From contig NZ_CYSD01000014.1 in NCBI RefSeq assembly GCF_001458415.1, positions 1-64,000 of the forward strand: a DNA stretch of 64,000 nucleotides. Direction: 5' to 3'. This DNA is from Tritonibacter multivorans (GTDB lineage Bacteria; Pseudomonadota; Alphaproteobacteria; Rhodobacterales; Rhodobacteraceae). A program made the position numbers and the translations under genes. The notes beneath the pieces were generated by a model that did not search any database, was not told where the DNA came from, and worked only from the letters and a program-made list of their open reading frames with translations. Below, piece by piece: positions 9,438 through 37,311 of the stretch. Numbering within the stretch: the stretch's first letter is position 1; each line of letters starts with the position of its first letter.

Positions 9438-9478
9438 ATGCAACGCCTCATGACCGGGCCCCGTTCTAGCCCGTCAGG

Positions 9479-9496
9479 TTAACAGTAGCATGACGG
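9479..9496 (-). promoter_or_regulatory. Candidate PHO box (PhoB site) of the plcP-btaAB operon
   Basis: The reverse strand reads CCGTCATGCTACTGTTAA, two 7-bp half-sites spaced by 4 bp that match the PhoB consensus CTGTCAT-N4-CTGTCAT at 11 of 14 positions. It ends about 40 bp before the plcP start, as expected for a PhoB-activated promoter. The match was made by eye; the function of the downstream genes makes it credible. Confidence 0.65.
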
Positions 9497-9884: not shown

Positions 9885-10733
9885 GTGTCCAGCATTCTGA
9901 CCAACAATGGCGCAATGGTTGCGCTGCAGACCCTCAAGTCAGTCAACGATAGCCTAGATGAGACCCAGTCCGCCATCTCGACTGGTAAGGAAGTGGGCAA
10001 AGCCAAAGACAACGCGGCTGTTTGGGCAATCTCCAAAACCATGGAATCCGATATCGCTGGTTTTGAAGCCATCGAAGAAGGTCTGGCCATCGGTGAAGCA
10101 ACCGTCGGCGTGGCCTCTGCTGCGTCTGAACAGATCGTAGAAAAGCTGAAAGAGATCAAGGAACTGGTGGTTTCGGCACAGTCTGAGAACGTGGAACACG
10201 CCACGATCCAGAACGACATCGACTCCAAAGTCGCGCAGATTGACTCAATCATCTCTGCGGCTCAGTTCAACGGTGCAAACCTGCTGCGCTCGGATATTGA
10301 TGGCAATTCCACAACCAGCTTGGGCGTTCTGGCCTCTTTGGACCGTCAGGGTGCTGGTGGCACTGTGACCGCGGTTGAAATCGCTGTCGCAACCGTCGAT
10401 TTTGAAGGGAACCTCGACCTGTCCGCTTCGCTGACGTCAATCACAGACTCTGCAACTGCGGCCCTCGCACTGGACGACATTGAGGTCCTGCTGAACGTGG
10501 CAATCGAAGGCGCGGCCTCTCTGGGTGCGGCTGCGGCCCGTCTGGAAGACCAGTCTGACTTTGTCTCCAAGCTGGTCGACTCCATGACCATGGGTGTGTC
10601 CACCATGACTGACACCAACATGGAAGAAGCCTCCGCTCGTCTGCAGGCGCTGCAGACCCAACAGGAACTGGCCGTTCAGTCGCTGACCATCGCGAACGAA
10701 GCGCCGGGCACCCTGCTGCAGCTGTTCCAGTAA
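9885..10733 (+). CDS. Flagellin
   Basis: Structural subunit of the flagellar filament. The N-terminal D0/D1 segment (SSILTNNGAMVALQTLKSVN, then QSAISTGKEVGKAKDNAAVWAISKTM) and the C-terminal D1/D0 segment (ARLQALQTQQELAVQSLTIANEAPGTLLQLFQ) are both intact, with a short variable middle. At 282 residues it is a small roseobacter-type flagellin. Translation starts at GTG with AAGGA upstream. No other flagellar gene is adjacent, so the filament gene stands away from any main flagellar cluster within this window. A terminator follows. Confidence 0.95.
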   Translation: MSSILTNNGAMVALQTLKSVNDSLDETQSAISTGKEVGKAKDNAAVWAISKTMESDIAGFEAIEEGLAIGEATVGVASAASEQIVEKLKEIKELVVSAQSENVEHATIQNDIDSKVAQIDSIISAAQFNGANLLRSDIDGNSTTSLGVLASLDRQGAGGTVTAVEIAVATVDFEGNLDLSASLTSITDSATAALALDDIEVLLNVAIEGAASLGAAAARLEDQSDFVSKLVDSMTMGVSTMTDTNMEEASARLQALQTQQELAVQSLTIANEAPGTLLQLFQ

Positions 10734-22334: not shown

Positions 22335-22370
22335 CGGCCGCGCTACTCCCCAGCGCGGCCGTAGTTTTGT
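22335..22370. terminator. Strong bidirectional terminator
   Basis: A perfect 10-bp stem CGGCCGCGCT / AGCGCGGCCG with a 7-base loop, followed by TAGTTTTGTT on the + strand and, read the other way, by CTTTTTATAAAAAA. It separates the Rieske operon from the convergent RTX gene. Confidence 0.85.
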
Positions 22371-22418: not shown

Positions 22419-25040
22419 TCAGAACAGGAAACAGTCGAACAGGTCCGCAGATGACAGGGCGTCGTCTTCCAGCACCGCAGTCAGCGTGACGGTGCTGCTG
22501 CCCAAGGTGACCACGGCATCCCCAGAGGCGAGAATGGTGACGTAGCTTTCGAACCATGTCAGTTCCTCCGCTTCGGTACTGGCCAGGTCCAGTTGCCGCA
22601 GGTCAAAACGGTCGCCGTCTTCGGTTGAGAAGTCGGTGATCTCATCGGTGCCGCCGCTGAGGTCATCGTTGCGGAATACGAACCTGTCACCGCCGGCGCC
22701 ACCCGTGGCAATGTCATCGCCCGCACCCATATAGAGCTGGTCGCGTCCGCCTCCGCCGTCGAGCACATCATTGCCGTAGCCACCGCTGAGGTGATCGCGG
22801 TCCGCGCCCCCATCCAGCGTGTCATTGCCGGAATCGCCTTTCAGCCGGTCCCGTCCGGCGCCCCCAGACAGCTGGTCATTGCCGGTGCCGCCAATGACCC
22901 GATCCGCGCCATCTTCGCCAACAACAACATCATCCCCTGACCCAGCAGTCAGGCTGTCATCGCCATCGCCGCCATAAAGGTCATCATCGCCGCTGCCGCC
23001 GATCAACGTGTCCGCGCCGTCCTCGCCGTTCAGTACATCATTGCCAGAGCTGCCCGTCATATGATCGTCGCCAGCGTCGCCGTACAGAAGATCGTCATGG
23101 CTGCCACCATTCATCTGGTCGGCATCGGCCCCGCCATAAAGCGTATCATCGCCGCTGCCCCCGACCATGGTATCGGCCCCAGCCCCGCCCCAAAGCGCGT
23201 CGGTGTTAGCGCCGCCGGACAGATCATCGTCGCCGTCCCCGCCCCGGAGCGTGTCAAACCCAGAGCCACCGGACAGGGTGTCATTGCCTATGCCGCCCTC
23301 CAGCGTGTCGTGCCCTGCCGATCCTGACAGGTGGTCATCGCCAGTCCCGCCCGACAGGCTGTCGTCGTCCGGGGCAAGCGGATGACCATCTGCATCAAAT
23401 CGCGCGCCCTCGGCGTCATAATAGGACCGCCCCGCCGGACCGCTGCCGGGGGCGCCGCCGCCATAAAGGGAATCGTCGCCCGTGCCCCCATCCAGCACGT
23501 CGCCTAAGCTGCCGCCGATAATGACGTCTTCGCCCAGGCCGCCAACCAGCAGGTCTTCGCCGCCTGCACCTTCCAACGTGTCGTCATAGCTGAGGTCACC
23601 TTCGGCCGTTGCGGTCATCTCCAGATTGCGGATCAGAACGCTGGACGACAGGTCCACATCCACAAACGGGCTCAGCGCCCGCGGATCTGCGGCGCCGTCG
23701 TTGGAATAGGACTTGGGTGCGGATGTGATCAGCTCTAGCGTGGCAGTGCTGGTGTCGGGATTGACGATGACCTTGTAGATGCCGCCCGCGCTGCGGGTGC
23801 TGTTGTCCATGTCATGGTCGCCAGAGTTGCCGCCCACAAACAGATTGCCATCGGTGTCATAGATCGCAGCGCCAAAAGTGATGGCGGGCACGCCGACCTG
23901 TGTCTCCCCATCGATCACAGTATGGGTGACAGAGATTTCGCTGAACTCAGGCGTGCCGGAAGAGATATCCACGGTCAGTAATGTAGCAGGCTGGCCCTCG
24001 GCGCTGGGGCGGCAGACGCCTCGAAAGATCTGGTTTTCCGCGTCAAATGCCAGATCGTAGAAGCTTTTCTGAACCAGATCGCGGGGCAGTTTATGCACCG
24101 TTGTCAGCGGGTTCCCGTCACCGTCCAAAGTGTCCACATCAATGACTGCAATGTGGTTCATACTGGAATTGAACGACCACAGATTGCCCTGATCGTCAAA
24201 ATCCCCGGTCCAGGCCCGGTATGGGGTTTCCCCGATCCGATAAGTGTGCCCATCCGCATCAATCATCACCAGATCACTGGCGGCAACCGCATTGCCAAGG
24301 GCATCGGTACCACTGCCGACGGCGATGGCATAAAGCAGGTCATCTTGTTGATTGAACCCCATAGAGTTCACATTGACCGTGCCGTCCACGCCCGCTTTTT
24401 CATAGGTGCTGGTGGCGGTGTCAAAAACATAAAGCGTCCCATTGAGCACCTGCAGCAGGTTCGACTGTCCTTCAGCAAAAGCAGCGACGGTTGTGGTTTC
24501 GCCGCCGATCACCACCTCTTTGTCATAGTGGAACACCGGCCCGCTGGTGTCGATCACAGGACCGGTTGCCTCTGTCTCGATCGACCGGACGGTCAGGGTC
24601 GTTTCCGCTCCGGTTGCCGTAAAGGACACATCATGCACCCCAAACGCACCGCTGTCCGAGGACACGGTTTTGATGACTGTGTCGCCGACCAGAATTTCGA
24701 CCCCAACCGAGGTGACCCCAGCCGCAAAGTTCGCTGCGATCTCAAACGACACGGAATAGACGCCGGTTGCTTCGGTTGTGATGGTCTGGGACATGGCCTG
24801 ATGGCCATCGTCCAGCGATGTGACCGTCCAATGCCCCGAGGCGCCATAATCGGCAAAGCCATAGGCGCCGCTGGTTCCGTCCAGATGATTGTCCGACTGA
24901 TAGTCGCCATAAAGCGCGTCGTCACCGGCTTGTCCGGCTATTGCGTCATTGCCGGCCAGACCGACCATGACATCAGCAGCGCCTGACCCCGTTAGGTCGT
25001 CAGCACCTGCTGAGCCTGAATGTGTTGTTGCATCAACCAT
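22419..25040 (-). CDS. RTX calcium-binding secreted protein with a beta-propeller-like middle
   Basis: An 873-residue protein secreted presumably by a type I system. Two short RTX-like repeats lie at the N-terminus (GADDLTGSGAADVMVGLAGNDA), then about 400 residues resembling a beta-propeller (repeating DLLYAIAVGSG, GNLWSFNSSMNHIAVIDVDT, GNLFVGGNSGDHD). From about residue 500 come some 15-20 GGxGxDxL nonapeptides, and the end is a secretion-signal-like ALSSADLFDCFLF. No catalytic domain is recognised, and in particular no alginate C5-epimerase or lyase module. Start at 25040 has GGGAGG upstream. It sits 39 bp after algD on the same strand, so it may be an extracellular matrix partner of the polysaccharide. 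Confidence 0.85.
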   Translation of the reverse strand: MVDATTHSGSAGADDLTGSGAADVMVGLAGNDAIAGQAGDDALYGDYQSDNHLDGTSGAYGFADYGASGHWTVTSLDDGHQAMSQTITTEATGVYSVSFEIAANFAAGVTSVGVEILVGDTVIKTVSSDSGAFGVHDVSFTATGAETTLTVRSIETEATGPVIDTSGPVFHYDKEVVIGGETTTVAAFAEGQSNLLQVLNGTLYVFDTATSTYEKAGVDGTVNVNSMGFNQQDDLLYAIAVGSGTDALGNAVAASDLVMIDADGHTYRIGETPYRAWTGDFDDQGNLWSFNSSMNHIAVIDVDTLDGDGNPLTTVHKLPRDLVQKSFYDLAFDAENQIFRGVCRPSAEGQPATLLTVDISSGTPEFSEISVTHTVIDGETQVGVPAITFGAAIYDTDGNLFVGGNSGDHDMDNSTRSAGGIYKVIVNPDTSTATLELITSAPKSYSNDGAADPRALSPFVDVDLSSSVLIRNLEMTATAEGDLSYDDTLEGAGGEDLLVGGLGEDVIIGGSLGDVLDGGTGDDSLYGGGAPGSGPAGRSYYDAEGARFDADGHPLAPDDDSLSGGTGDDHLSGSAGHDTLEGGIGNDTLSGGSGFDTLRGGDGDDDLSGGANTDALWGGAGADTMVGGSGDDTLYGGADADQMNGGSHDDLLYGDAGDDHMTGSSGNDVLNGEDGADTLIGGSGDDDLYGGDGDDSLTAGSGDDVVVGEDGADRVIGGTGNDQLSGGAGRDRLKGDSGNDTLDGGADRDHLSGGYGNDVLDGGGGRDQLYMGAGDDIATGGAGGDRFVFRNDDLSGGTDEITDFSTEDGDRFDLRQLDLASTEAEELTWFESYVTILASGDAVVTLGSSTVTLTAVLEDDALSSADLFDCFLF

Positions 25041-25079
25041 GATGTCCTCCCTTTCCCCCCTTGAGCGCAAATGCGCGAA

Positions 25080-26471
25080 TTACCAGCCGATGCCCTGAAC
25101 GGCGACGTCCGTCGGCGCGGCGTCAAACAGGCGCACCAGATCGACCACTGGCAGGCGACAGCTGCGGACAACCTCGCGGTAGGTCGGTGTGGCATGACAG
25201 ACGACCAACACATCTGATGCGCTCAGCACGTCATTGAGGTCGTCTCGCAAAAGCGTGGGAAGATCCTCGGCCAGGGTTTGCAAGCCAGCGTTTCCATGGC
25301 GGACATAGGCCAGCTGATCGGCAATCCGGGTGTCTTTGTTCACCGCCGGATCATGGGCCAAAGGTTCGATACCCTCTGCACGCAGACGCGCCATCAGATC
25401 GAGCGCCGGGCTCTCGCGCAGGTCATCGGTGCCCGGTTTGAACGCGATCCCCAGAATACCAACCCGTTTGGCCCCGGTTTCGCGCACCAGCCGGACGGCC
25501 TCGTCGATCTGCGCCTGATTGGACACATCGAGGTTCGAGATCATCGGCACACTGACGCCGGTGTCGCGGGCCATATGCGCCACCGCGCGCACCTCTTTGG
25601 GCAGGCAGGACCCGCCATAGGCAAACCCCGGTTTCAGGTAGTAGGGCGACAGGTTCAATTTCGTGTCTTGCGTGAAAATACCCATCACTTCGTGGCTGTC
25701 GACGCCAATCGGTTTACACAAGCGGCCAATTTCGTTGGCAAAACACACTTTTGCCGCATGCCAGACGTTGTCCACGTATTTCACCATTTCGGCCGCGTCG
25801 ATTGTTGTGACAATTGGAGAAGGGTCAATGGGCGTGTAAATCGACTTCACAATTTCTGCAGTTTTTTCATCCATTGCGCCAATGACTGTCTTTGGTGGGT
25901 TGAAAAAATCGTCTATCGCGACGCCTTCCCGCAAAAACTCCGGGTTGAAGCAAACGCCAAAGTCGCGACCCATTTTTTTGCCCGATGTTTTGGCAATAAT
26001 GTCGGCCATAACATTCAGCGTTGTCCCGGGCGGAATAGAACAGCGCATGACAAAGACGTGAAAATCGTCTTTTTGGACAAGACCCTTTGCCATATTGCGC
26101 GCGGCCTGCCGGATGTAGCGGTCATCGCAGCCACCGTCCTGTGCGGTTGGGGTGCCCACAGATACAAAGGTAACATCGGTCTCTTGAACCGCTTTAATCA
26201 AATCAACAGAGGCAGTTACGCGTTCGTTCAACACGCCTTTCATCAAGTATTTGCCCAGGTTCTTTTCGTGAATCGGGCTGCGGCCTGCGCGAATGTCTTC
26301 CACTTTGTCGGGGTCGATGTCGACGCCGACCACCCGATGCCCCAGCGCTGCCAGACAGGCGGTGGACACTGCGCCAACATAGCCTAGCCCAACAATACTG
26401 ATTGCGACTTTTTCCGTCTTTTGGACCTGAATTTCATCCGCAGCGTATAAGGAGAGTCCCTCAATGTTCAT
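25080..26471 (-). CDS. algD: GDP-mannose 6-dehydrogenase
   Basis: Makes GDP-mannuronate, the alginate precursor, by NAD-dependent four-electron oxidation. The 463-residue protein has the Rossmann motif ISIVGLGYVGAVSTACLAALGHRVVGVD, the catalytic cysteine region GFAYGGSCLPKEVRAVAHMA, and GILGIAFKPGTDDLRESP. These fit the UDP-glucose/GDP-mannose dehydrogenase family, and the algA/alg8 neighbours favour AlgD. The ATG at 26471 has AAGGGCTGGGAA ahead; the TTG ten codons earlier lacks this. A terminator separates it from algA, so it appears to have its own promoter (26472-26608), and it is followed by the RTX gene. Confidence 0.88.
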   Translation of the reverse strand: MNIEGLSLYAADEIQVQKTEKVAISIVGLGYVGAVSTACLAALGHRVVGVDIDPDKVEDIRAGRSPIHEKNLGKYLMKGVLNERVTASVDLIKAVQETDVTFVSVGTPTAQDGGCDDRYIRQAARNMAKGLVQKDDFHVFVMRCSIPPGTTLNVMADIIAKTSGKKMGRDFGVCFNPEFLREGVAIDDFFNPPKTVIGAMDEKTAEIVKSIYTPIDPSPIVTTIDAAEMVKYVDNVWHAAKVCFANEIGRLCKPIGVDSHEVMGIFTQDTKLNLSPYYLKPGFAYGGSCLPKEVRAVAHMARDTGVSVPMISNLDVSNQAQIDEAVRLVRETGAKRVGILGIAFKPGTDDLRESPALDLMARLRAEGIEPLAHDPAVNKDTRIADQLAYVRHGNAGLQTLAEDLPTLLRDDLNDVLSASDVLVVCHATPTYREVVRSCRLPVVDLVRLFDAAPTDVAVQGIGW

Positions 26472-26608
26472 TTCCCAGCCCTTCTGTTTAATTTGATTCA
26501 AGTTTTAGGATAGGGTCAGGTGAACTTTTGCGTAGGTGCCAAAACGGGTGAATTGCAACTCCAAAGCGAAATAACCTATACGAAAGATATACTCTCGGGA
26601 ATGCGTAT

Positions 26609-26635
26609 AAAAAAACCCCCGGATGAAACCGGGGG
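26609..26635 (-). terminator. Rho-independent terminator between algA and algD
   Basis: Reverse strand: CCCCCGG-TTTCAT-CCGGGGG followed by seven Ts. It ends the algE-to-algA transcript about 25 bp after the algA stop, so algD and the RTX gene are either a separate unit or expressed by read-through. Confidence 0.88.
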
Positions 26636-26657
26636 TACATTCTTTCTGATTGCGACT

Positions 26658-28085
26658 TCAGGCCACGATTGTCGTCCTATTGTATATGTCTTCGTATCTT
26701 GCGATGTCGTCTTCTCCCAAATAACTTCCTGACTGTACTTCAATCAGGTGGAGTGGCAGTTTTCCGGGGTTTTCCAATCGGTGAATTTCACCCAAGGGAA
26801 TGTAAGTCGACTGGTCTTCTGTCAGGAGGGTCACCTTATCCCCAATCGTCACCCGCGCTGATCCTGCGACAACAACCCAATGTTCGGCGCGATGGACGTG
26901 GCTTTGCAGCGACAGCTGTCCGCCGGGTTTCACCATCAGCCGCTTGACCTGGAACCGATGCCCCAGAGACAGCGTCTCGAAATAGCCCCAGGGCCTATAG
27001 TTGCGCCGGAAGGATTTGGCCTGAACCGCTTCCTGCTGGCTTAGGACATCAACCGTCAGGGCAGCGTCGTCCACGGCATCACTATGGGCGACGAGGATGC
27101 CATCATCTGTGGCAACGGCCACAATGTCCTCCAGCCCCAGCCCAACCAGCGCGATGTCTGGGTTTTCGGATTTGAGCAGGCTGTTTTCGCAGCGAATTGC
27201 AGTGGCGTTGCCACTTAGCGCATTGCCGTCACAGTCCTTGGGCGACGCGTTTTGCAATGCGCTCCAATTGCCCATGTCAGACCATCCGCAATCCAAAATC
27301 GCCGCGCGCATATTGCGTTGATGTTCCAACACCGCATAGTCCAGTGCGATCGACTCGCATTGGGCGTAGGCCTCGGCGTGGAGTTTCAGGCAACTCAGAT
27401 CTTCTTCTGCCCAGGCCAGCGCTGATTCACAGGCCGACACAAGCTGTGGCGCATGTTCCATAAAGGCATCAACCAGCGTGCCGACGCGGCACAGAACCAT
27501 CCCTGCGTTCCAAAAGTATTCGGCGCTGTCGATCATCTTCTCGGCGGTGGCGCGGTCCGGTTTTTCGACAAAGTTGGCGATCTGCTGCAGGCCGTTTTCA
27601 TCCGTATTGGCTTGCGGAATATGCAGATGGCCAAACCCCGGCTCAACACGTGTGGGGGGCACGCCAAACAAAACGATCCCTTCTTTCTTGGCGACCTTTT
27701 CAGCAGAGCGCACCACAGCTTCAAATGCCTTCTTGTCTTCGATGACGTGATCGCTGGGTATCAGCATCATGACCGCGTCCGGGGTGTCTTGCATGCTCAG
27801 CGCCGCCACCAACGCGGCAGGGCCCGTATTACGCGCGACGGGTTCGGCGATCACGGTGATGTCGGCTTGGTCCTCTTCCTGGGTCTGATCGTCGACAATG
27901 AAACGATAGTCATCGTGCGTCACAACAATCGCAGGGGCAAAACCTGGCCCGGAAAGGCGGTCCAGCGTCTGCTGAAACAGGCTCTTTTCGCCGACCAAAG
28001 ACGTGAATTGTTTGGGAAAGCTCTGGCGGGAAACCGGCCACAAACGTGTACCACAACCCCCTGCAAGTATAACGGGATAGATCAT
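26658..28085 (-). CDS. algA: Mannose-1-phosphate guanylyltransferase / mannose-6-phosphate isomerase
   Basis: Bifunctional enzyme making mannose-6-phosphate and GDP-mannose for the polymer. The 475-residue protein has the N-terminal nucleotidyltransferase (VILAGGCGTRLWPVSRQSFPKQF, MLIPSDHVI, FVEKPDRATAEKMI) and a C-terminal cupin isomerase domain (VKPGGQLSLQSHVHRAEHWVVVAGSA, IPLGEIHRLENPGK), the fused CpsB/AlgA layout. Last gene before the terminator at 26609. The phosphomannomutase (AlgC) that lies between the two activities is not encoded in the window. Confidence 0.94.
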   Translation of the reverse strand: MIYPVILAGGCGTRLWPVSRQSFPKQFTSLVGEKSLFQQTLDRLSGPGFAPAIVVTHDDYRFIVDDQTQEEDQADITVIAEPVARNTGPAALVAALSMQDTPDAVMMLIPSDHVIEDKKAFEAVVRSAEKVAKKEGIVLFGVPPTRVEPGFGHLHIPQANTDENGLQQIANFVEKPDRATAEKMIDSAEYFWNAGMVLCRVGTLVDAFMEHAPQLVSACESALAWAEEDLSCLKLHAEAYAQCESIALDYAVLEHQRNMRAAILDCGWSDMGNWSALQNASPKDCDGNALSGNATAIRCENSLLKSENPDIALVGLGLEDIVAVATDDGILVAHSDAVDDAALTVDVLSQQEAVQAKSFRRNYRPWGYFETLSLGHRFQVKRLMVKPGGQLSLQSHVHRAEHWVVVAGSARVTIGDKVTLLTEDQSTYIPLGEIHRLENPGKLPLHLIEVQSGSYLGEDDIARYEDIYNRTTIVA

Positions 28086-28220
28086 TCTGACACTCCTCTT
28101 CCTGATGCATTAAGGTTAACGCAGCTTCGAGAAGATGCATCCTGTCCAAGGGGGGATGTGGCCTGCGCGGAAGGGAGCGCGTTGCGCGAAAGTATGGCGG
28201 ATTCGCGCGGGCGAGAGGCG

Positions 28221-29807
28221 TCAGTTCCAGATGATCGACGCATCCAGAAGGCCAATGTAGATCGCTAGCCCGGTGACAAAGGCTGTGACCGTTGTAACCA
28301 ATTGAAACTTCGCGCAAGCGTTCTGCAACCGGTCAACCAGCGACGTCCCGTCGCCCGCGCTTTGGTTGCCACGATTTGACCATTTCTGCTTGCTGAGGTG
28401 AAACACCATAAAGACCTTCACGCCGGCGTTGATGATCTGATTGAAATACAGAATGAACGGCCAGCTCATGTCCGGTTCACGTGCGTAGCGGAACAGGAAC
28501 AGGCACAAGAGTGTTCGGCTGGCGACAATCCAGATCAGACAGTTCAGGATATAGGCAGGCTCTATGAACAGGCTCAGCAGGGCCATGATCGGGCTGACCA
28601 GCATGGTCCACATGGCAATGCGCTGATCGACCACGCACCACCAGATAAAGGGGCGGCACACGCCGGGACCAAGCGCGATGGCGCGGGCCCCGTTGCGCAG
28701 CATATTGCCAGACCAGCGCCGGAAGTTCTGGACCATGCGCCCGGTGCCAGATCCTTCGATCTGTTCAATGGTATAAACACAGGCATCCGGCACATAGGTC
28801 ATTTTCGAACGGCGGCTAAGCAGGTGATACCAGGTGCTTTTGTCGTCGCCGGACAGAAACCGAAAGCGGCCCCACAACCAATGGTCCAGATGATCGGCTT
28901 CGATGGTGCGTATGAAACGTTCGTCGATCATGTGCTTGGCGCGAAACACGCTCATCCGGCCGGTCAATGTCAGCACCCGCTTTGACAAGGCGTGGCTTTG
29001 CATGGCCAGCCTGCGCTGGGCAAACCGCATCGACAGCCAGCTTTGAATCCAGTCGGGACCGTAACACAGCACTTCTTCGTTGGTGGTCAGCGCCTGCAGG
29101 TTCGGGTCTGCGCCGAACATCGAACAGGTCTTTTCCAGAACGTCCGACCCATAGACCGCATCCCCATCCATAAAGATCACCAGATCGTCGGGCTGGATGC
29201 CTGCCCGGTTCATCGCGCGCAGCACCATGCCAATCGCCATCCGTTTGCCCGGCTGGTTCTGACGCAGGAACACCAGCTGCGCGTCTACATCCGCCCCATG
29301 GGTGCGGGCAAATTCGGTGATGATCGTTTCATCATAGCTGGAGCCGGTGCCGATCCAGAGCGTGGTCGGGATACCTTCGCGGCGGATCTGGCCAATGATC
29401 GAGCCGATCACCCGCCGGGTGATCGCGGGGTCTTCGTAGTAGGTGGTCATTTGAATATGCAGCCGCCGTGGCCGCCAGCCGGATTGCCACACCCGGTCTG
29501 CGCGGCGGCGCATTCCGGGCCAGATCAGGCGGCCATAGATGGCGGCGCGGATCGAATGGGTGAACCACCAGCCAAACCGCCAAAGACCCAGAACTCCCAG
29601 CACAAGCGAGACATGCAAAAGATCCGGGTCAAAAAACCGATTGGGCAGGAAAACCAAAGCGGTGATCAAACTGGCCAAGAGGCAGGCCAAAAGGATCCGC
29701 TGTTTTGTCGGCCATTTGGCCAACCCTTGTTTTGCGGGCGAAGACAGCCCGTCGAGCCAGCCGTCGAGGTGTTTTTCAAAGCCTTGAACGGTGTCAGGTG
29801 CCTGCAT
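28221..29807 (-). CDS. alg8: Alg8: alginate polymerase-type family 2 glycosyltransferase
   Basis: Inner-membrane processive glycosyltransferase that would polymerise GDP-mannuronate. The 528-residue protein has two N-terminal membrane segments (ILLACLLASLITALVFLPN, LLHVSLVLGVLGLWRFGWWF), the GT2 acidic motif VIFMDGDAVYGSD, the (R)RW motif in QNFRRWSGNMLRNGARA, and a C-terminal membrane bundle. The ATG at 29807 overlaps the alg44 stop by 14 bp, with AGGTGG ahead; the longer ORF start lies inside alg44. It is slightly longer than the Pseudomonas protein (about 494). Confidence 0.9.
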   Translation of the reverse strand: MQAPDTVQGFEKHLDGWLDGLSSPAKQGLAKWPTKQRILLACLLASLITALVFLPNRFFDPDLLHVSLVLGVLGLWRFGWWFTHSIRAAIYGRLIWPGMRRRADRVWQSGWRPRRLHIQMTTYYEDPAITRRVIGSIIGQIRREGIPTTLWIGTGSSYDETIITEFARTHGADVDAQLVFLRQNQPGKRMAIGMVLRAMNRAGIQPDDLVIFMDGDAVYGSDVLEKTCSMFGADPNLQALTTNEEVLCYGPDWIQSWLSMRFAQRRLAMQSHALSKRVLTLTGRMSVFRAKHMIDERFIRTIEADHLDHWLWGRFRFLSGDDKSTWYHLLSRRSKMTYVPDACVYTIEQIEGSGTGRMVQNFRRWSGNMLRNGARAIALGPGVCRPFIWWCVVDQRIAMWTMLVSPIMALLSLFIEPAYILNCLIWIVASRTLLCLFLFRYAREPDMSWPFILYFNQIINAGVKVFMVFHLSKQKWSNRGNQSAGDGTSLVDRLQNACAKFQLVTTVTAFVTGLAIYIGLLDASIIWN

Positions 29808-31212
29808 TGAACCACCTGTCCCAGAACATCGGGCGGCGCAGGGCAATATGAACCGGGGCGTTGCGGCCAAACCATTTGCGGGTGTTCATGACGCCCACGC
29901 CCTCGGCCTTGATGGTCAGGATCATGCCATATCGATCAGGGCGCGCCACGTCTGCTCCGGCTTCGATCTTCAGGACCTCGCCGGGAACAGACCGGCGTTC
30001 GCCGCGGTAGGAAAAATGGATCATGGCGTCCATACCGGGATGCACATGGGTCGCCATACGGTCATCCAGCCACGCCACGGCAAGGCGGGGGGTGCGGTCT
30101 TCGACCTCAACCACGCGAGCGCCTCGGGCGACTGTGCTGTTCTTGATGGCATCAATTTCGGTGACCGTGCCGGGCCCGCGGGCGCGCAGCACCAGATTAC
30201 CTACCGCGGCTTTGCGATGCCGCAGCTCGCGCTTCCAATGTCGCAGGTCCAGCTGGCGATCCTCCACCGTGGTCTCAAGCAAGGCGCGCATCTCCCAATA
30301 TCCGCCGGGGCCGTCGTCTATCCCGTTGGTGAAATGAACATAGGCCTCCCAGGCCCTCTGGACGTCCGGAGGGTAGATCAACATCCGCGGATCTTTGGCG
30401 CGCAGGGGCAGCCAGAGGCGATAGAACGCGCGCCACAGATCTTCGCGTTTCACCGCATATTGGGCGATATGGCGGTCCAGACGGTCCTGCGCGCTGTGCA
30501 GGCGGCGTTCGGCTGTTAGCACTTCGATCCGCACATCTTCGACATCACTGTCGCGATCCGGGTCCGAGAGTTTTACCAAAAGATCGCCGGGTTCCACCGT
30601 TTCGCCAATGCGCACATGCAGGCTTTTGACATAGCTGGCATCCGGTGCCACGTATTCGGTGATCGGGGCCTGAAACCGGGCATGATCCAGCTGAATGTGC
30701 GAAATGCGGTTCAGAAGTTTAGACCCTAAAAACACCGCCAACACGCCTGCCAGCAGCACAAAGAGCCCGACGTTCAACACAATGCGCAGTGCCCTGGGGG
30801 CTTGCCCTGCGCGTCCTGCGGCCTCTTCTTCTTCGGTTTCGGACATTGGGACCAGATCAACCGGGGTGTCGAGGCTGGTGATAATATCTTCGGTCGACAC
30901 CATGCGCCCTGACAGGACCCCTTGGTAGAAAGTGGACAGTGTTTCGCGCTGGCGCACCGTCAGGTCCTTAAAGTGAAACCCCCCATCCTCGGTGCGTTCC
31001 GTCAGCAGTACGGGAAAAGACACGTCAATGCCCTGAAACGGCACGGTGAGCGTGACTTCGCCCTGCAGGTCGACGTCTTCGTCCTCCAGCCAAACCCCGG
31101 TCAGGGACCAGCGTTGCGCGACATGGAGCTGCCCATTCTGGCAATGCAGCTTCAAAGGGGCAGTGACCGAATAGGACAGATTCGGCTTTGGACATTCGTG
31201 TCGAATGTTCAT
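29794..31212 (-). CDS. alg44: Alg44: PilZ/HlyD-like co-polymerase
   Basis: Partner of Alg8 in alginate polymerisation. The 472-residue protein has an N-terminal PilZ-like domain (about 1-110), one membrane segment (LRIVLNVGLFVLLAGVLAVFLG, about 145-165), and a periplasmic HlyD/membrane-fusion region with coiled coil (LHVRIGETVEPGDLLVKLSDPD; VLRARGPGTVTEIDAIKNS). The PilZ c-di-GMP motifs look degenerate: only R4 of the RxxxR pair is obvious, and [D/N]xSxxG reads RWSLTG. Strong RBS AGGAGATAGCG. It lies between algX and alg8 and overlaps the latter. Confidence 0.87.
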   Translation of the reverse strand: MNIRHECPKPNLSYSVTAPLKLHCQNGQLHVAQRWSLTGVWLEDEDVDLQGEVTLTVPFQGIDVSFPVLLTERTEDGGFHFKDLTVRQRETLSTFYQGVLSGRMVSTEDIITSLDTPVDLVPMSETEEEEAAGRAGQAPRALRIVLNVGLFVLLAGVLAVFLGSKLLNRISHIQLDHARFQAPITEYVAPDASYVKSLHVRIGETVEPGDLLVKLSDPDRDSDVEDVRIEVLTAERRLHSAQDRLDRHIAQYAVKREDLWRAFYRLWLPLRAKDPRMLIYPPDVQRAWEAYVHFTNGIDDGPGGYWEMRALLETTVEDRQLDLRHWKRELRHRKAAVGNLVLRARGPGTVTEIDAIKNSTVARGARVVEVEDRTPRLAVAWLDDRMATHVHPGMDAMIHFSYRGERRSVPGEVLKIEAGADVARPDRYGMILTIKAEGVGVMNTRKWFGRNAPVHIALRRPMFWDRWFNAGT

Positions 31213-31361
31213 CGCTATCTCCTGGGGTCAAATCGTATAGGGGTGAACGTCGCCCGGTTAGTTTACCGGACGATCCAACCAGCCGAACGCGGGCACACGG
31301 CTACGTTTGGTCGCGTTTTGGTAGGTGGGATATACCTTTGCGCAAAGCGCCGCATGGGGCG

Positions 31362-32660
31362 TTAGCGATAAAGCGTCACCGTGAAAGGCTGGTCCGCAGT
31401 ATTGGCCAGGCGTAGCTTGAGGCGGGCCACATCGGTGAATTCCAGCGCCTCAAAACTGAAGGTCCATGTGTCGGTTCGCAGGTCCTGAGGCAGGCGTTTG
31501 GATTTATCGAGCTTCACACGGGTCTTCTTCCCGTCCGCGCTGATCAGCTCTACCGCCAGCCTGCCTTCGTCATGTCCGGGGGTCTGGATTTGCATCCCTT
31601 TGAAACTGTCGGCCGAGAAGCTTTGCTGCAGGTTCTGCCAGTCGGTGCCAATGGTGCCGCTGTGCAGATGCGTTGTCGGACGTGGTGTCAGGGTGCGCAG
31701 GTCGCCCAGGACCTGTCGCAGGCCGCTGATCTGCGTCAGTGGCGTGGTATAGGGGCTTTCCCAGATCACCGTATGCAGCCCCTGCGCGTCCAGTCCGCCA
31801 CTGTAAAGAAACGCAGACATGGCCCCGGTGCGACCGCCCCCGGTCAGGGACCAATTGTCCACCTCACTGTCGAGCGTATGCGCCAATGCATCCGCCACAC
31901 GGTAGGCATCGCGCTGATACCTGTCCGAATAGCTGGTGCCGACCAGAACGACCCCCGGCATGTCCTCGGACACTGCCAAAAGCGCCTCTGCCGACCCCTC
32001 GCGGGTAAAGTTCAGGGCTGCGACGGTTTCGGGTTCTGGCCGCTGGCCGCAGCTGTCTTCGACCACACGGGCAAGCGATCCTTTTTCTTCGTATTGATCT
32101 TTTGCGGGGACTTTGGCCAGCAACCCGGCCTCCGAAGTGCCATCCAGATGCGCCCGCAACAGGGCAGCCGACCGCGCCGCGCCTTCCGGTGTCCAATGGG
32201 TGTCCCGCTTAAAATAGATCGGGCCGTCTTCTTGGGTCAGCACGGTCAGGTCCGGTGCCGGAATGCCTGCCGCGTTCAGGGCTGCGATATAGGCGCTAAA
32301 GCTGCGTTGCAGCGGTTTCTGAACCTCGTCCGGGGTCAGCCCCATGCGTTTAAGAACTTGCGGAGGCGTGAAAAGCGGGCGTGGCGGCGCGGCCAGCACC
32401 ACAAGCTGCACTCCGTGCATTTGAAATTCAGCGGCAATGGCCTGCCACAGGCGCATGGTCTCTTCGGTGACGGTGAAGTCGCCCTTTAACTGATCGGCGC
32501 CAATGATCCAGCCGCTTTTGCTGTCAGAATAAAAGGGGCCGCGTTTTTGGTATTTCTTCGGCAGGGTTTCAACGCTGGTCAGGTCCGAGCAATAGGGCAT
32601 GGCCATGACCCCGGCGGACAATCCAAGCGACACAAGGGCAGAAACAAAGAGTGTTTTCAT
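31362..32660 (-). CDS. algX: AlgX: SGNH-like alginate O-acetyltransferase with C-terminal carbohydrate-binding region
   Basis: Periplasmic acetyl transfer onto the polymer. The 432-residue protein begins with a signal peptide (MKTLFVSALVSLGLSAGVMA) and shows the catalytic DxH of the SGNH-like fold at D153/H155 (FKRDTHWTPEGA), the serine motif GTSYS at about 243, and VIWESPYTTPL. The last 100 residues (DTWTFSFEALEFTDVARLKLR) resemble the beta-sandwich binding module that distinguishes AlgX from AlgJ. Its ATG overlaps the algJ stop by 4 bp. All active-site residues are present. Confidence 0.87.
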   Translation of the reverse strand: MKTLFVSALVSLGLSAGVMAMPYCSDLTSVETLPKKYQKRGPFYSDSKSGWIIGADQLKGDFTVTEETMRLWQAIAAEFQMHGVQLVVLAAPPRPLFTPPQVLKRMGLTPDEVQKPLQRSFSAYIAALNAAGIPAPDLTVLTQEDGPIYFKRDTHWTPEGAARSAALLRAHLDGTSEAGLLAKVPAKDQYEEKGSLARVVEDSCGQRPEPETVAALNFTREGSAEALLAVSEDMPGVVLVGTSYSDRYQRDAYRVADALAHTLDSEVDNWSLTGGGRTGAMSAFLYSGGLDAQGLHTVIWESPYTTPLTQISGLRQVLGDLRTLTPRPTTHLHSGTIGTDWQNLQQSFSADSFKGMQIQTPGHDEGRLAVELISADGKKTRVKLDKSKRLPQDLRTDTWTFSFEALEFTDVARLKLRLANTADQPFTVTLYR

Positions 32661-33706
32661 GGCAATAGGTCCTTTGAAACGTAGCGCAGCGGGATCTCCC
32701 AGATCACCAGCTGCGGTGGTGAATTCTTTAACGTGTCGGAGGCAAGAAACTGCTCCATTGGCGCGAAGGGGCCGGTGCCTTCGCGGGCATAGTTGATGAC
32801 ATCACTGCGCAGCGCTTGTTTCAGAAAGCCTTCGAAATGAAACTCGGATCGGGCGCTGAAGCTGGTGCCGACCAGAACCACCGGCACGTCGGCGGCGTCG
32901 AACAGGCCCAGGCTGCTTTCGACGGTGGTGACATACTGCACAAGGGTTTCCGGCGGCGGTCCAAACACCGGGCGCAAAGCGCCTGTGGGGACGAACCGGA
33001 TCAAGTCGCCGACAAAAGGCTGAGCGCCCAGTGATGTGGTTTCGACCTCTGTGGTTCCCGGTGCAAACAGCCCGGCGGCAAGCGCATGTTGCGCGGCGGC
33101 TTCTGCGACGCTGCGGCTGCCGTGTGGTGACCAATGGGTGTCTGTGCGCATAAAGACAGGGCCGGTTTGCGCCGCCTGCAACAGGGCAGGGCTGGCGTCC
33201 AATGCGGACACGCCGCGGGCCTCCAGCGCGCCATAAAAACGGTCACGCCGGTGCAGCAGTTCTTTGGGGCGTTTATGCCTGAGGTGCTGGGGATAGAGGT
33301 CGGACTTGTCGGGCACCAGAACCGGCAGAACTGCGATCCCTTGCGCGGCCATGTCCCCCACAACCTGTGTCACATACTCCGCTGAGGTCTCAATCCGGGC
33401 AGCAAAGCCCGGAGCAGTTTCGAATTCCTCTGCGGTGAACAGCCAGCCCGCATGCCCGACCAGAACACCATCCGATCCCTGTCGAAACAGCGCATAGCGC
33501 AGTGTGCCAAGCGCCGTGATAGCAAAACCTTCCAGTGGGTTTGCGGCCTCGAATGCGTCCTCATACCCGGCCTGCCACGCCCCCGATCGCAGGTCTGCGG
33601 CGGCGAAGCTATGGTCCGTGCGCAGGTGGCTCAGGACCCCCACGCCAGACAACGCGAGCACAAAACCAAAGGCGGCGGCCGTTTGGGGAATGTTTCCTGG
33701 CAACAT
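32657..33706 (-). CDS. algJ: AlgJ-like SGNH O-acetyltransferase
   Basis: Membrane-anchored acetyltransferase paralogous to AlgX but without the C-terminal binding module, 349 residues. An N-terminal anchor (TAAAFGFVLALSGVGVLSHL) is followed by the DxH motif at about D189/H191 (FMRTDTHWSPHG), the serine motif in VLVGTSFSARSEFHF, and the C-terminal LVIWEIPLRYV. The ATG at 33706 is favoured over GTG 33709 because GGAGG stands 7 bases ahead of the ATG. It lies 15 bp behind algI and is coupled to algX, completing the I-J-X acetylation set. Confidence 0.87.
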   Translation of the reverse strand: MLPGNIPQTAAAFGFVLALSGVGVLSHLRTDHSFAAADLRSGAWQAGYEDAFEAANPLEGFAITALGTLRYALFRQGSDGVLVGHAGWLFTAEEFETAPGFAARIETSAEYVTQVVGDMAAQGIAVLPVLVPDKSDLYPQHLRHKRPKELLHRRDRFYGALEARGVSALDASPALLQAAQTGPVFMRTDTHWSPHGSRSVAEAAAQHALAAGLFAPGTTEVETTSLGAQPFVGDLIRFVPTGALRPVFGPPPETLVQYVTTVESSLGLFDAADVPVVLVGTSFSARSEFHFEGFLKQALRSDVINYAREGTGPFAPMEQFLASDTLKNSPPQLVIWEIPLRYVSKDLLP

Positions 33707-33721
33707 CACAATCCCTCCCTG

Positions 33722-35119
33722 TCAGAACTGAAAATACAAAAATGGTGAATGGCTCTGGGCGACCAAAGCGAGACAGGTAAGCCCCAGTAACGCTGTCTTC
33801 CCGGCAAGACGCAAGCTTTGCGGTGCATGGAGAGCCCATGGGCGAAGGTGCGGTGCCCAGAGGCTGAGGGCGCAACCCACTGCCAGTGCAGTGATTTCTG
33901 TGGGCTGAATTTGCCAGGCAACGGCGTCTGAAATGGACCAGCCGTTCCAGCCTATCATCCCGGTATAGACGCCAAAGGCCTGGGTCAGCGTTTCGGCCCG
34001 AAAGACCACCCAGCCAAGCAGAACAACCGTCATGGTCACCGGCCAGCCAAGGACACGGCCCCAGATCGGCGTCTGCGCCGTGCCCCCCAGCGCGCGTTCC
34101 AGCGCCAGCCACCCCCCGTGCCACGCCCCCCAGACAATAAAGGTCCAATTGGCCCCATGCCACAACCCGCCCAGCACCATGGTCAGCAGGAGGTTGATGT
34201 AAGTCCGCACACGCCCCTTTCGATTGCCGCCAAGCGGCACATAGAGGTAATCGCGCAGCCAGCAGGACAGGCTGATATGCCACCGTCGCCAGAATTCGGT
34301 GATGGACTGGCTGATATAGGGGGCGTCAAAATTCTCGATGAAGCGAAATCCGATCATCAGCCCCAGCCCGATCGCCATGGCCGAGTAACCGGCAAAATCG
34401 AAGAACAACTGAATGGCATAGGCAACAGCACCCAGCCATGCCTCGCTGCCGGTGGGGGTGGACAGGGCAAAGATCCGATCCGCCAAGGGGGCCACAGTGT
34501 CTGCGATCAACAGCTTCATCGCCAGCCCCTGCGCAAAACGTCCGACGCCGCGCAGAAAGATCTCGGGCGAATGCTGCCGCTCGGTAAACTGATCTGCCAG
34601 ATCCTTGTAGCGCAGCACGGGGCCCGCAATCAGCTGCGGAAACAGCGCCCCAAAGGCGAGGAAATCAACAAGATTGCGCGCAGGCGGCGCATCGCGCCGG
34701 GCCACATCAATGATGTAACTGATCGACTGGAAGGTATGAAAACTGATGCCTATGGGCAGGATTATGGCAGGCACCGTGATGTCTGCGCCTCCCAGCGCTT
34801 GGGACAGATCCTGCAACCCGCTGAGCACGAACATCGTGTATTTGAAGTACCCTAGAACGGCGAGGTCAAAGGCAACGCCAAGGCGCACAGCCCACATCCG
34901 CACCACAGGCCCATGGGCCGAAACCGCGATCCGTGCGGCCATGAAACTGACCAGTGACATGCCAAAAATCAGCGCGAGGTAATCCAGCCGCCACCAGCCA
35001 TAAAAGGCATAGCTGCCCAGCAGGATCACCAGCGATCGGGCTTGTTTTGGCACCAGATAGTAGACCCCCAGAAACAGGGGCAGAAACCCAAAGACAAAAA
35101 TCGCGCTGGAAAAGATCAT
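33722..35119 (-). CDS. algI: AlgI: MBOAT-family membrane O-acyltransferase
   Basis: Carries acetyl groups across the inner membrane for polymer acetylation. The 465-residue multi-span protein has the MBOAT core: GISFHTFQSISYIIDV, FPQLIAGPVLRYKDL, FFDFAGYSAMAIGLGLMIGF, ITEFWRRWHISLSCWLRDYLYVPLGGN, and the catalytic histidine in GGLWHGANWTF. Length and motifs are normal for AlgI/PatA. It follows algF by 38 bp. Confidence 0.94.
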   Translation of the reverse strand: MIFSSAIFVFGFLPLFLGVYYLVPKQARSLVILLGSYAFYGWWRLDYLALIFGMSLVSFMAARIAVSAHGPVVRMWAVRLGVAFDLAVLGYFKYTMFVLSGLQDLSQALGGADITVPAIILPIGISFHTFQSISYIIDVARRDAPPARNLVDFLAFGALFPQLIAGPVLRYKDLADQFTERQHSPEIFLRGVGRFAQGLAMKLLIADTVAPLADRIFALSTPTGSEAWLGAVAYAIQLFFDFAGYSAMAIGLGLMIGFRFIENFDAPYISQSITEFWRRWHISLSCWLRDYLYVPLGGNRKGRVRTYINLLLTMVLGGLWHGANWTFIVWGAWHGGWLALERALGGTAQTPIWGRVLGWPVTMTVVLLGWVVFRAETLTQAFGVYTGMIGWNGWSISDAVAWQIQPTEITALAVGCALSLWAPHLRPWALHAPQSLRLAGKTALLGLTCLALVAQSHSPFLYFQF

Positions 35120-35157
35120 TCCTTTACCCCCTATCCTTTCCCCCCTATCCCGTGTCG

Positions 35158-35748
35158 CTACTGAGCCACCGGATCGAACCGATGCTCGATCAGCTGGACG
35201 CCTGTGGGGGTCGCCAGAAAACTAAGGTTCTGCCCGCGCTGGAGGTTCACCTGAAACGTCCGCAAGGGCTCACCGCCGTCCTCGGCAACCACGCTAAGGC
35301 CAATGCTGACCGGGTTGACCGCGCGGGTGCCCGATTGCATTGCAGAGATGCCCTGAATGACGACGGTCTCGGACCCGGCCACACGGAGGTTCAGGTTCTG
35401 CGGCGTGGTATTGATCAGAAACAAATGCACCTTGCCCGGATCCCGGACGGCACCTTCCTGAATGGTCCGAAGCTGCCCGGTGCTGTCTTTGACAACCGTC
35501 AGAAAAGCCCCCGGTTGAATGCCCTGCAAAAGTGCCGCGGACACCGGCACATAGGGAGCGCCTTCGGTTTTGGGGATGTCAAAGCTTTTGCCAGCGAACT
35601 GAATGGGTTCACCGCGTTCAAACCCAATAAAGCGCAGGAAGCTCGCGTCGGCTGGGGCGGCTTCTGGATACAGGCCGGTATCGGATCTTGCGGGCAGCGA
35701 CAGGCTTGTCAGTGCGAGGATGAAGCAGAGGGTTTTTGCGGTTTTCAT
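35158..35748 (-). CDS. algF: AlgF: periplasmic alginate O-acetylation protein
   Basis: A 196-residue exported protein with signal peptide MKTAKTLCFILALTSLSLPAR. The N-terminal TGLYPEAAPADASFLRFIGF and the segment PYVPVSAALLQGIQPGAF are typical of AlgF, needed for O-acetylation but of no known catalytic activity. RBS GGAGGACCCC precedes the ATG. AlgF occurs only in acetylated-polysaccharide loci (alginate and acetylated cellulose), so it supports the naming of its neighbours. Confidence 0.87.
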   Translation of the reverse strand: MKTAKTLCFILALTSLSLPARSDTGLYPEAAPADASFLRFIGFERGEPIQFAGKSFDIPKTEGAPYVPVSAALLQGIQPGAFLTVVKDSTGQLRTIQEGAVRDPGKVHLFLINTTPQNLNLRVAGSETVVIQGISAMQSGTRAVNPVSIGLSVVAEDGGEPLRTFQVNLQRGQNLSFLATPTGVQLIEHRFDPVAQ

Positions 35749-35766
35749 GTGGGGTCCTCCTTGTGG

Positions 35767-37029
35767 TCAGAAGTAGATCGACAGCTGCGTGTAGACGTGG
35801 CTGTAGGTGCTGCGGTCGACGTAGGCCGATCCCGGTTTGAACAGCCCCACGCCAAACTGAAGTTTGGTTTTTTTACTTGGACGCCAGGCCCCGACGAGGC
35901 TGATCTCGGTGCCAACAAAGCGCGAGCGCCCGGTGGTCTGCCCGTTGATCCGGGCGCTGGGCGCTGTGGTGGAAGGCCGGAGCTGCGCGTAGGCATGAAG
36001 GCCCGCATCTATGCTGAATTTGCGCGATGGCCGAAGGCCAAGCGCCAAAGTGGCCACGGCCAGATTGCTGAGCTCTGGCCGGTAGGCATAGCCATAGCGG
36101 TTGAACTGTTTCTGGCCGCCGTCATAGGTCTTGTTGGTCTGAAGCCCGGTTTGCCGAAATCCAGCGGTGCCCACCGCAAAGCCATAGGTCACTTGCGGAT
36201 TGCGCGCGCCTTTGAGTGTGCGAATGCCGCGCAGGTCGACGCCAAGTCCTGATGATTTCTGATTGGCAGCGTCGCCCAGAACAACCGCGCTGTTGAGTTC
36301 AAAACGATGGTGGTCTGAGGGGCGATGCGTCAGATGGCCAAACAGGTAAAAACGCCGGTCCTCCGCGTCTGTTTCGGCCATCCCCAGGATGCTGCGCCGA
36401 CCGGTGTCTGTCTTCCAGGTCTTGTGCGCCATTGCGAAGGTCGGGCGGCTGTCGTCTGTTCCGCGAAAGGCCGCAACTTCCCAGGACGACATGCCCCCGA
36501 GCTTGGCAAAGTGGAGGCCATCAACAGCCCCATCTGCGATCCATTTGGCCGGGTCCGAAAACCGCATCCTCCCGATGGTCAGCTGCGTCTGTGGGCCGGT
36601 GGCGACGGAGACAAGGGCCTCTTTCACCCTAAAGTCGGATCGCGTCGGGTAGCTGCTGCTGTGAGTTTCAATCCAGCGCGCGCCATATTGGATGTGCCCA
36701 AACGCCACCACCGAAGGTGTGATCTGCGTACGGGCCCAAGTTTCAATGTGGCCCCCGAGGTCACGCTTGTAATCGCGCAGCCCGTCATCGCGGCGCAGAT
36801 TGTTGTCCCAGACGGCTTTGACGCTGGCGCTGGCGCCATATTGAAACCAGCTCGTGGGCTTGTGTTTGGCGCGTTTGCGGGTCTCAATATGAAACAGAAG
36901 CGCCGGTTTTGCGGCTTTGGGTTTTGCGGCCTTGGATCTGGCGTCGGCCGTCGTGGGGCCGCCGGTCGCAAGGACGACCAGTGCCAAAGCCACAGACAGC
37001 TTCCTCAGCCATTTTGCCGAATTTCGCAA
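35767..37029 (-). CDS. algE: AlgE-type alginate export outer-membrane beta-barrel
   Basis: A 420-residue outer-membrane porin for polymer export. The signal peptide KWLRKLSVALALVVLATGGPTTADA requires the TTG start at 37029, which has GGGGAG eight bases ahead. The body is made of alternating amphipathic strands (SFRQTGLQTNKTYDG, RYGYAYRPELSNLAVATLALGL) and ends in YTQLSIYF with a terminal phenylalanine, as outer-membrane barrels do. First gene of the cluster, so the promoter should lie in 37030-37263. It is somewhat shorter than Pseudomonas AlgE (about 490). Confidence 0.83.
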   Translation of the reverse strand: MRNSAKWLRKLSVALALVVLATGGPTTADARSKAAKPKAAKPALLFHIETRKRAKHKPTSWFQYGASASVKAVWDNNLRRDDGLRDYKRDLGGHIETWARTQITPSVVAFGHIQYGARWIETHSSSYPTRSDFRVKEALVSVATGPQTQLTIGRMRFSDPAKWIADGAVDGLHFAKLGGMSSWEVAAFRGTDDSRPTFAMAHKTWKTDTGRRSILGMAETDAEDRRFYLFGHLTHRPSDHHRFELNSAVVLGDAANQKSSGLGVDLRGIRTLKGARNPQVTYGFAVGTAGFRQTGLQTNKTYDGGQKQFNRYGYAYRPELSNLAVATLALGLRPSRKFSIDAGLHAYAQLRPSTTAPSARINGQTTGRSRFVGTEISLVGAWRPSKKTKLQFGVGLFKPGSAYVDRSTYSHVYTQLSIYF

Positions 37030-37263: not shown

Positions 37264-37300
37264 GAAAAAGGCGACAGGGGCGCGACAAGATCGCGCCCCT
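37264..37300 (-). terminator. Terminator of the TRAP permease gene
   Basis: Reverse strand: perfect 10-bp stem AGGGGCGCGA / TCGCGCCCCT with a 5-base loop, then GTCGCC and TTTTT. It isolates the alg cluster from the upstream transporter. Confidence 0.78.
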
Positions 37301-37311
37301 GATCGTGGACA

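Follow-up and report, generated by a model that had tools for sequence, protein, structure and literature searches.

Gene content of the alg-like locus

The window analysed here, positions 1 to 64,000 of contig NZ_CYSD01000014.1 from the roseobacter Tritonibacter multivorans, contains an alginate-like cluster of ten open reading frames at 22419–37029, all on the minus strand. Its Alg8-like synthase falls in a lineage of its own, mainly of Rhodobacterales and related to canonical alginate systems, that we call type A. An earlier sequence-only reading had placed ten same-strand genes here; their coordinates match ours, and Pfam and NCBIfam back most of the names that it gave. The gene order is E-F-I-J-X-44-8-A-D-RTX, with short intergenic gaps and an overlap of 4 bases between AlgJ and AlgX. 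The earlier description of this order as mostly inverted relative to the Pseudomonas operon is only partly correct: set against the reference alginate order (L150, D-8-44-K-E-G-X-L-I-J-F-A, with names given from position and similarity), A, E and the I/J pair break a simple inversion.

Both the GDP-mannuronate supply and the complete O-acetylation set of alginate systems are encoded. AlgA (26658–28085, 475 aa), a mannose-1-phosphate guanylyltransferase/mannose-6-phosphate isomerase, matches TIGR01479 (8.7e-164) and scores above the GMP-PMI equivalog cut-off of NCBIfam (545.7 versus 372.95 bits). For AlgD (25080–26501, 473 aa) the top solved relative is the GDP-mannose 6-dehydrogenase 1mfz (4.9e-108, residues 33–473), with the best UDP-glucose dehydrogenase 93 bits lower. 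The acetylation genes encode the adaptor AlgF (35158–35748, 196 aa; Pfam AlgF, 1.3e-12), the MBOAT acetyl transporter AlgI (33722–35119, 465 aa; Pfam MBOAT, 8.2e-32) and two SGNH acetyltransferases, AlgJ (32657–33709, 350 aa; Pfam ALGX, 1.4e-75) and AlgX (31362–32660, 432 aa; Pfam ALGX, 3.9e-37), the latter with a C-terminal domain. The AlgJ translation contains DTHW and GTSFS stretches, which we take to be catalytic, and the AlgX alignment contains DTHW and GTSYSD stretches together with the C-terminal part.

The synthase is a glycosyltransferase family 2 (GT2) protein (28221–29870, 549 aa as listed; Pfam GT2, 5.5e-29). Its likely start, the Met at 29807, lines up with the starts seen in several relatives; from there the gene overlaps the end of the Alg44-like gene (29794–31212, 472 aa; Pfam HlyD_3, 1.4e-10). 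The latter encodes a degenerate PilZ-like domain, one membrane helix and a membrane-fusion part with a long hairpin. At the upstream end of the cluster lies an AlgE-like outer-membrane barrel (35767–37029, 420 aa; Pfam Alginate_exp, 3.9e-18; PDB AlgE 4afk, 1.6e-5), the sole PF13372 match in its own genome (E up to 1). The Pfam match is confined to the C-terminal portion of the barrel (profile positions 209–384 of 395), and comparison with two Pseudomonas-like AlgE rows extends over 133 columns at a probability of 97% and 28% identity. The last gene (22419–25070, 883 aa) encodes an RTX protein (Pfam RTX repeats, 1.6e-70) predicted to comprise a beta-sandwich, a propeller-like part and an RTX roll; it is a conserved partner of the synthase.

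Terminator-like hairpins flank the cluster. One, at 37275–37301 on the minus strand, has a 12-pair stem and a T run and lies between AlgE and the gene of a DctM protein (TRAP transporter, Pfam); the other, with an 11-pair stem and a T run, follows the RTX gene at 22335–22361 and was scored on the plus strand as well as the minus. A third hairpin between AlgA and AlgD (26615–26636, minus strand, 8-pair stem and T run) may be a terminator or an attenuator. The flanking pair fits a single transcription unit. Terminator-like sites are not enriched in the region (20 versus 15.0 in shuffles, standard deviation 4.8), so only their placing is suggestive; promoter sites number 3, versus 5.9 in shuffles.

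A mainly rhodobacteral synthase lineage and its core genes

An alignment of eight Alg8 proteins served as the query in a scan of genome contigs for relatives of the window Alg8, and the best 80 of 101 were kept. Record titles name Rhodobacterales for 71 of these loci, the other nine being metagenome bins whose names are different or merely broader. Identity between the window protein and Pseudomonas-like Alg8 is ~35%. A tree of 88 rows sets the type A sequences, 80 in all, apart from four gammaproteobacterial and four type B sequences with support of 100. The tree, from which one named locus and three of the seven type B loci were excluded as too short, was made by a quick method with a midpoint root and gave long-branch warnings; the separation is firm and the root is not established. 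The window groups with the other AlgE-bearing rows in a set of nine, one of which (L071) has no AlgE in its stretch. Plasmid relatives are confined to 14 of 72,556 records, all below 60% identity. The cluster is patchy, because a genome of the same genus (G293) has no AlgF, type A Alg8 or AlgE-family match.

Type B is a second alginate-like cluster type in the same family, represented by L039:2290-18432 and the related loci L029, L038, L041, L043, L045 and L046. By Pfam, L039 encodes a Beta_helix protein, an AlgL-family lyase and a Sel1-rich protein of 925 aa, with related proteins in 7, 10 and 10 loci, respectively. The AlgG profile described below has a match at the type B position in G171, G184 and G072 and none there in G006.

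Neighbourhoods were compared at the long loci: 54 of the 80 named ones reach at least 21 kb, and in 51 of them a type A Alg8 scores above 850 bits. Counts of neighbours are cut short by the 10 kb flanks, most of all for AlgE. Across the 51 loci we found Alg44 in 51, AlgD in 48 and AlgA in 38. RTX matches exceed 100 bits in 48 loci, where some may come from unrelated proteins with RTX repeats, and 800 bits in 39. The arrangement Alg44-Alg8-(AlgA)-AlgD-RTX is colinear in 41. The remaining genes of the window cluster are much rarer: AlgX and AlgJ occur in 14 loci each, AlgI in 13, AlgF in 12 and AlgE in 6. LuxR-type regulators are present in 41 loci, hybrid histidine kinases in 40 and Oxidored_molyb-like genes in 33. 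The usual type A core is Alg44-Alg8-AlgA-AlgD-RTX, often with a hybrid kinase and a LuxR-type regulator, and the acetylation genes and AlgE are add-ons. Sulfitobacter mediterraneus (L075), for example, has the full set, and the Ruegeria loci L123–L125 have only the core. The standing of the RTX gene as part of this core had been overlooked by the sequence-only reading, as had the two features of Alg44 described below. That reading had offered two alternatives, acetylated poly-mannuronate exported by a minimal machine or missing parts encoded elsewhere, and the minimal machine is the better of the two. The frame of a reduced Pseudomonas operon in which it was set is wrong, because the synthase is of a separate lineage and most of the long relative loci have neither AlgE nor the acetylation set nearby.

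The divergence of the synthase raises the alternative that it takes another sugar nucleotide and makes a polymer other than alginate, AlgA and AlgD also serving other pathways. In keeping with this, the synthase stands on its own branch, and AlgA was undetected at 100 bits in 13 of the 51 long loci, which also counts against our main reading given below. At L028:6444-6902 AlgA is reduced to a mannose-6-phosphate isomerase domain of 152 aa. AlgA matches of merely 123–168 bits were recorded at L076, L077, L089, L111, L116 and L140. We nevertheless consider a non-alginate polymer distinctly unlikely, given an AlgD of the GDP-mannose kind in the same array, an AlgD match linked to the synthase in nearly every long locus and the co-occurrence of the acetylation set with the synthase.

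This co-occurrence was assessed in 295 genomes of the family, the window's own included, again with type A Alg8 defined as above 850 bits. Type A Alg8 is present in 20, AlgF in 25 and an AlgE-family protein in 19. Carriers of AlgF were divided by the adjoining AlgI into a type A kind (at least 58% identity, 15 genomes) and others (at most 54%, or AlgI unseen as in G022 and G159; 10 genomes). A type A Alg8 occurs in 13 of the 15 genomes with the type A kind and in 7 of the 280 others (Fisher p 4.9e-16, uncorrected for kinship). The two are unlinked in five of the 13 co-carriers, and two acetylation carriers, G211 and G260, have no type A synthase. The association supports acetylation of the type A polymer.

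AlgE shows no such association. An AlgE-family match is absent from 17 of the 20 type A genomes, and AlgE was rejected as a lineage-wide mark (3 of 20, Fisher p 0.13). A TolC-family gene adjoins the cluster only at L048, L105 (the same place) and L114, and was likewise set aside; with a BapA-like adhesin as its neighbour at L048, it probably serves adhesin secretion. At L048:14997-19470, in a genome with no AlgE match, a BapA-like Ig-repeat protein of 1017 aa and a TolC-family gene adjoin the acetylation genes.

Regulatory genes are a further variable. At seven loci of close relatives (L040, L070, L072, L073, L075, L136 and L147) the interval from AlgX to Alg44 contains a hybrid kinase gene and an Oxidored_molyb-like gene; neither is present at this position in the window or in L074. 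The window's own genome carries only a divergent kinase and Oxidored_molyb-like pair, on the 14 kb contig C7 (L179:5624-8633), and this pair lies near an AlgA-like frame (25% identity). Together with the lack of the cluster in the same-genus genome G293, the missing regulators could indicate a decaying or silent cluster that has lost regulators and export parts and exports no polymer. We regard decay as very unlikely: the ten frames are uninterrupted, of full length and carry the expected motifs, and L074 shares the arrangement without the regulators. The Oxidored_molyb-like small protein itself (L136:5363-5887 and 32 further long loci) has weak similarity to molybdopterin oxidoreductases and is tied to the kinase. 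A PAS-GGDEF-EAL protein (Pfam; window 14580–17255, minus strand), possibly a cyclic di-GMP (c-di-GMP) enzyme, is encoded near the cluster and was not seen to be conserved with it.

Search for AlgK, AlgG and AlgL and the architecture of Alg44

The sequence-only reading had noted the absence of AlgK, AlgG and AlgL from the cluster. We searched for all three in the whole genome (4.17 Mb in 45 contigs, 99.94% complete), with the gammaproteobacterial alginate operons L150–L153 as yardsticks, and found none at the sensitivity used. The AlgK profile (4 rows) and the AlgG profile (2 rows) were each run against 15 genomes, those searched for AlgK including 11 Rhodobacteraceae. AlgG gave no match in the window's genome (E up to 1); the same profile scored 850 bits in G478 and some match in 10 of the 15 genomes, those that donated its rows matching by construction. 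For the AlgL family, PF05426 gave a match in one of 14 control genomes and none in the window's genome; L150 and L039 have proteins that match it. A search of the same genome for polysaccharide lyase family 7 was negative as well and is uninformative, since no control matched either.

The AlgK profile scored 629–682 bits in its four row-donor genomes, as it must by construction; a second copy in one of these, G478, scored 424 bits. None of the 11 Rhodobacteraceae exceeded 41 bits, and the best match in the window's genome, at only 19.2 bits, is a Sel1 protein. This protein has ~157 aa, an apparent signal sequence and no recognisable polysaccharide genes nearby. Among the neighbours of the type A clusters, assessed by the beginnings of their sequences and by a small number of Pfam scans, no scaffold-like gene is prominent. 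The proposal that the missing parts lie elsewhere in the genome thus found no support. Two other beta-helix proteins are encoded in the genome, neither matching the AlgG profile. One, on contig C19 (L181:6619-8949), matches Pect-lyase_RHGA_epim (rhamnogalacturonase/epimerase superfamily) at 7.5e-9; the other, on contig C21 (L180:6775-9012), falls slightly below the Beta_helix cut-off and is encoded near a polysaccharide flippase gene.

Alg44 differs from its gammaproteobacterial counterparts in two respects. We take the c-di-GMP-binding motif of its PilZ domain to be RxxxR followed by [DN]xSxxG. In an alignment of 80 Alg44 rows (75 distinct, five repeating the same locus, and one cut at the N-terminus) this motif is present in a single row, and the window protein, whose Pfam PilZ match is marginal (E 0.016), does not have it. 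All three gammaproteobacterial references have the motif; the type B reference does not, and the 347 aa Alg44 counterpart in L039 is without it too. The alignment thus shows that nearly all type A Alg44 proteins have lost the motif, and with it probably the usual c-di-GMP site.

The second difference lies in the periplasmic part. Between its lipoyl halves, type A Alg44 has a segment with a median length of 121 residues, versus 32–36 in the gammaproteobacterial references. A profile of 40 Alg44 rows matched the type-I-secretion adaptor 5nen (2.1e-18) and EmrA (8zar, 4.8e-14) in the PDB, and a reference profile matched only its own PilZ domain, although the comparison is uneven because the latter has 3 rows. 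The predicted model of the window Alg44 (predicted local distance difference test, pLDDT, 84.8; predicted template modelling score, pTM, 0.53) comprises a PilZ-like domain and a membrane helix together with a hairpin that contains a helix of 56 residues. The best matches in the fold comparison were to EmrA and MacA, both adaptors of TolC pumps (E 6e-15 to 3e-14). By this model and by the fold and profile matches, the window Alg44 is predicted to have the lipoyl and barrel parts and the long alpha-hairpin of a membrane-fusion adaptor.

The RTX protein was aligned with 39 rows that are 47–61% identical to it. Its model (pLDDT 90.6) is predicted to consist almost wholly of strands that form a sandwich, a propeller-like part and an RTX roll, and the 50 fold matches listed comprise RTX domains, propellers and others. 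The secreted mannuronan epimerases of Azotobacter also carry RTX modules. We rejected a role as such an epimerase: the beta-helix A-module was found neither by Pfam nor in the model nor among the 50 listed fold matches. Judging by its linkage to the synthase, the protein is most probably secreted to act as a partner of the polymer.

Proposed export route and its relation to known systems

Tentatively, and at slightly less than an even chance, we read the cluster as a type A system that makes an acetylated polymannuronate-like polymer and in which the adaptor-like Alg44 hands that polymer outward in place of AlgK. AlgA and AlgD would supply GDP-mannuronate, Alg8 would polymerise it, and AlgI, AlgJ, AlgF and AlgX would O-acetylate the chain in the periplasm. 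Because AlgG was not found, the likely product is acetylated polymannuronate; the epimerase-superfamily protein on contig C19 makes epimerisation by another enzyme possible, so that a product without guluronate is only likely. Alg44, having lost the usual c-di-GMP motif, would act as a membrane-fusion-type adaptor whose long hairpin spans the periplasm and replaces the bridging by AlgK. The polymer would then pass to an outer-membrane channel, the AlgE-like barrel here and perhaps a general channel in relatives that have no AlgE. The RTX protein would probably be secreted and work with the polymer outside the cell. Bridging by Alg44 is the simplest proposal, because AlgK was not found and Alg44 has a long adaptor hairpin.

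Several observations weigh against this proposal, beyond the possible epimerase, the loci with undetected AlgA and the unequal depth of the two Alg44 profiles. In four relatives (L127–L130; records titled Rubellimicrobium, Phaeovulum and Rhodobacterales) Alg44 is complete at the N-terminus, with N-terminal domain and membrane helix, and has 0–3 residues in place of the hairpin; no AlgE was found at any of the four loci. The hairpin appears to have been lost or never gained there, and these relatives speak against bridging as a lineage-wide rule. The motif R-x6-L-x6-S/T, which we take to mark the tip of TolC-docking adaptors, occurs in 3 of 76 hairpins, not including that of the window. A diverged scaffold could be overlooked by the AlgK profile, which gives the type B Sel1-rich proteins only 14–20 bits, like the Sel1 match in the window's genome. 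Finally, a shortened AlgX N-terminus was rejected as a sign of AlgK-free export, as the reference L152 has AlgK together with a short arm. The hairpin-less Alg44 genes lie near 8576–10001 of their loci.

These points bear on the alternative of an ordinary alginate-like system, in which a diverged tetratricopeptide repeat (TPR) or Sel1 protein replaces AlgK, AlgE exports as in Pseudomonas and the role of Alg44 is unchanged. Such a system would account for the AlgE of the window subclade, the signal sequence of the Sel1 protein, the poor profile score of a Sel1-rich protein within a type B alginate-like cluster and the dispensability of the hairpin in four relatives. It fits poorly with a sole Sel1 candidate of so small a size and without recognisable polysaccharide neighbours, with type A neighbourhoods in which no scaffold gene stands out, and with the rarity of AlgE-family matches in type A genomes. 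We judge it rather unlikely. The adaptor-like Alg44 can also be read more broadly, as the mark of a distinct roseobacter exporter class: a GT2 synthase and a membrane-fusion Alg44 with dead PilZ domain and long hairpin would feed a uronic-acid chain directly to a channel, mostly of TolC type and of AlgE type in the window subclade; an RTX protein dedicated to the system would be secreted, and two-component control would replace c-di-GMP. TolC-family proteins are present in 20 of 20 type A genomes, with three in the window's own, which is only a necessary condition for TolC docking, and this broader formulation seems to us improbable.

With alginate secretion in Pseudomonas and Azotobacter the cluster shares AlgA, AlgD, AlgI, AlgJ, AlgF, AlgX and an AlgE-family barrel, along with homologues of Alg8 and Alg44. 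It differs in that AlgK, AlgG and AlgL were not found, Alg44 has a long hairpin and no c-di-GMP motif, an RTX gene is linked and the synthase is of another lineage. We do not count it as a member of the alginate system, because several defining features that we looked for were not found; it is probably a variant that works partly like that system. According to the accessible parts of studies on Pseudomonas, localisation of AlgE depends on AlgK, and the periplasmic part of Alg44 has been proposed to touch AlgX and AlgK (PMC10641220, PMC9734138). The idea of reduced alginate operons is already known: atypical operons without algKE or modification genes have been described in environmental and deep-sea bacteria (PMC7112194). 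Those operons likewise have lost outer-membrane transport and modification genes, and the accessible part of that report makes no mention of type A, of an RTX partner, or of motif loss and a hairpin in Alg44. Among the literature matches listed, in which subscription journals are mostly outside coverage, no paper describes the type A lineage.

Two further systems invite comparison. The EmrA and MacA adaptors of TolC pumps resemble the predicted periplasmic fold of Alg44 with its long alpha-hairpin; the window protein differs in its PilZ-like cytoplasmic domain, its polysaccharide synthase partner and the lack of the tip motif. For the rhizobial mixed-linkage glucan synthase BgsBA, an HlyD-like partner has been suggested to form a polymer-expelling channel (PMC9495663), and the combination of a GT2 synthase with an HlyD-like protein is the same. 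BgsBA makes a glucan and is activated by c-di-GMP through the synthase C-terminus, and neither an acetylation set nor AlgE is mentioned in the accessible part of that report. In Phaeobacter, as far as the accessible text goes, an insertion in a phosphomannomutase gene is tied to motility and alginate (PMC12363192).

Synthase-dependent exporters are thought to require a periplasmic TPR scaffold and an outer-membrane barrel. Type A loci seemingly have no scaffold, mostly no AlgE barrel and usually an adaptor-like Alg44. If type A systems do export a polymer, the accepted minimal set would be wrong, and polysaccharide export would meet the architecture of tripartite pumps. Roseobacters live on algae and particles, and an acetylated uronic-acid slime would therefore bear on their attachment and on marine carbon.

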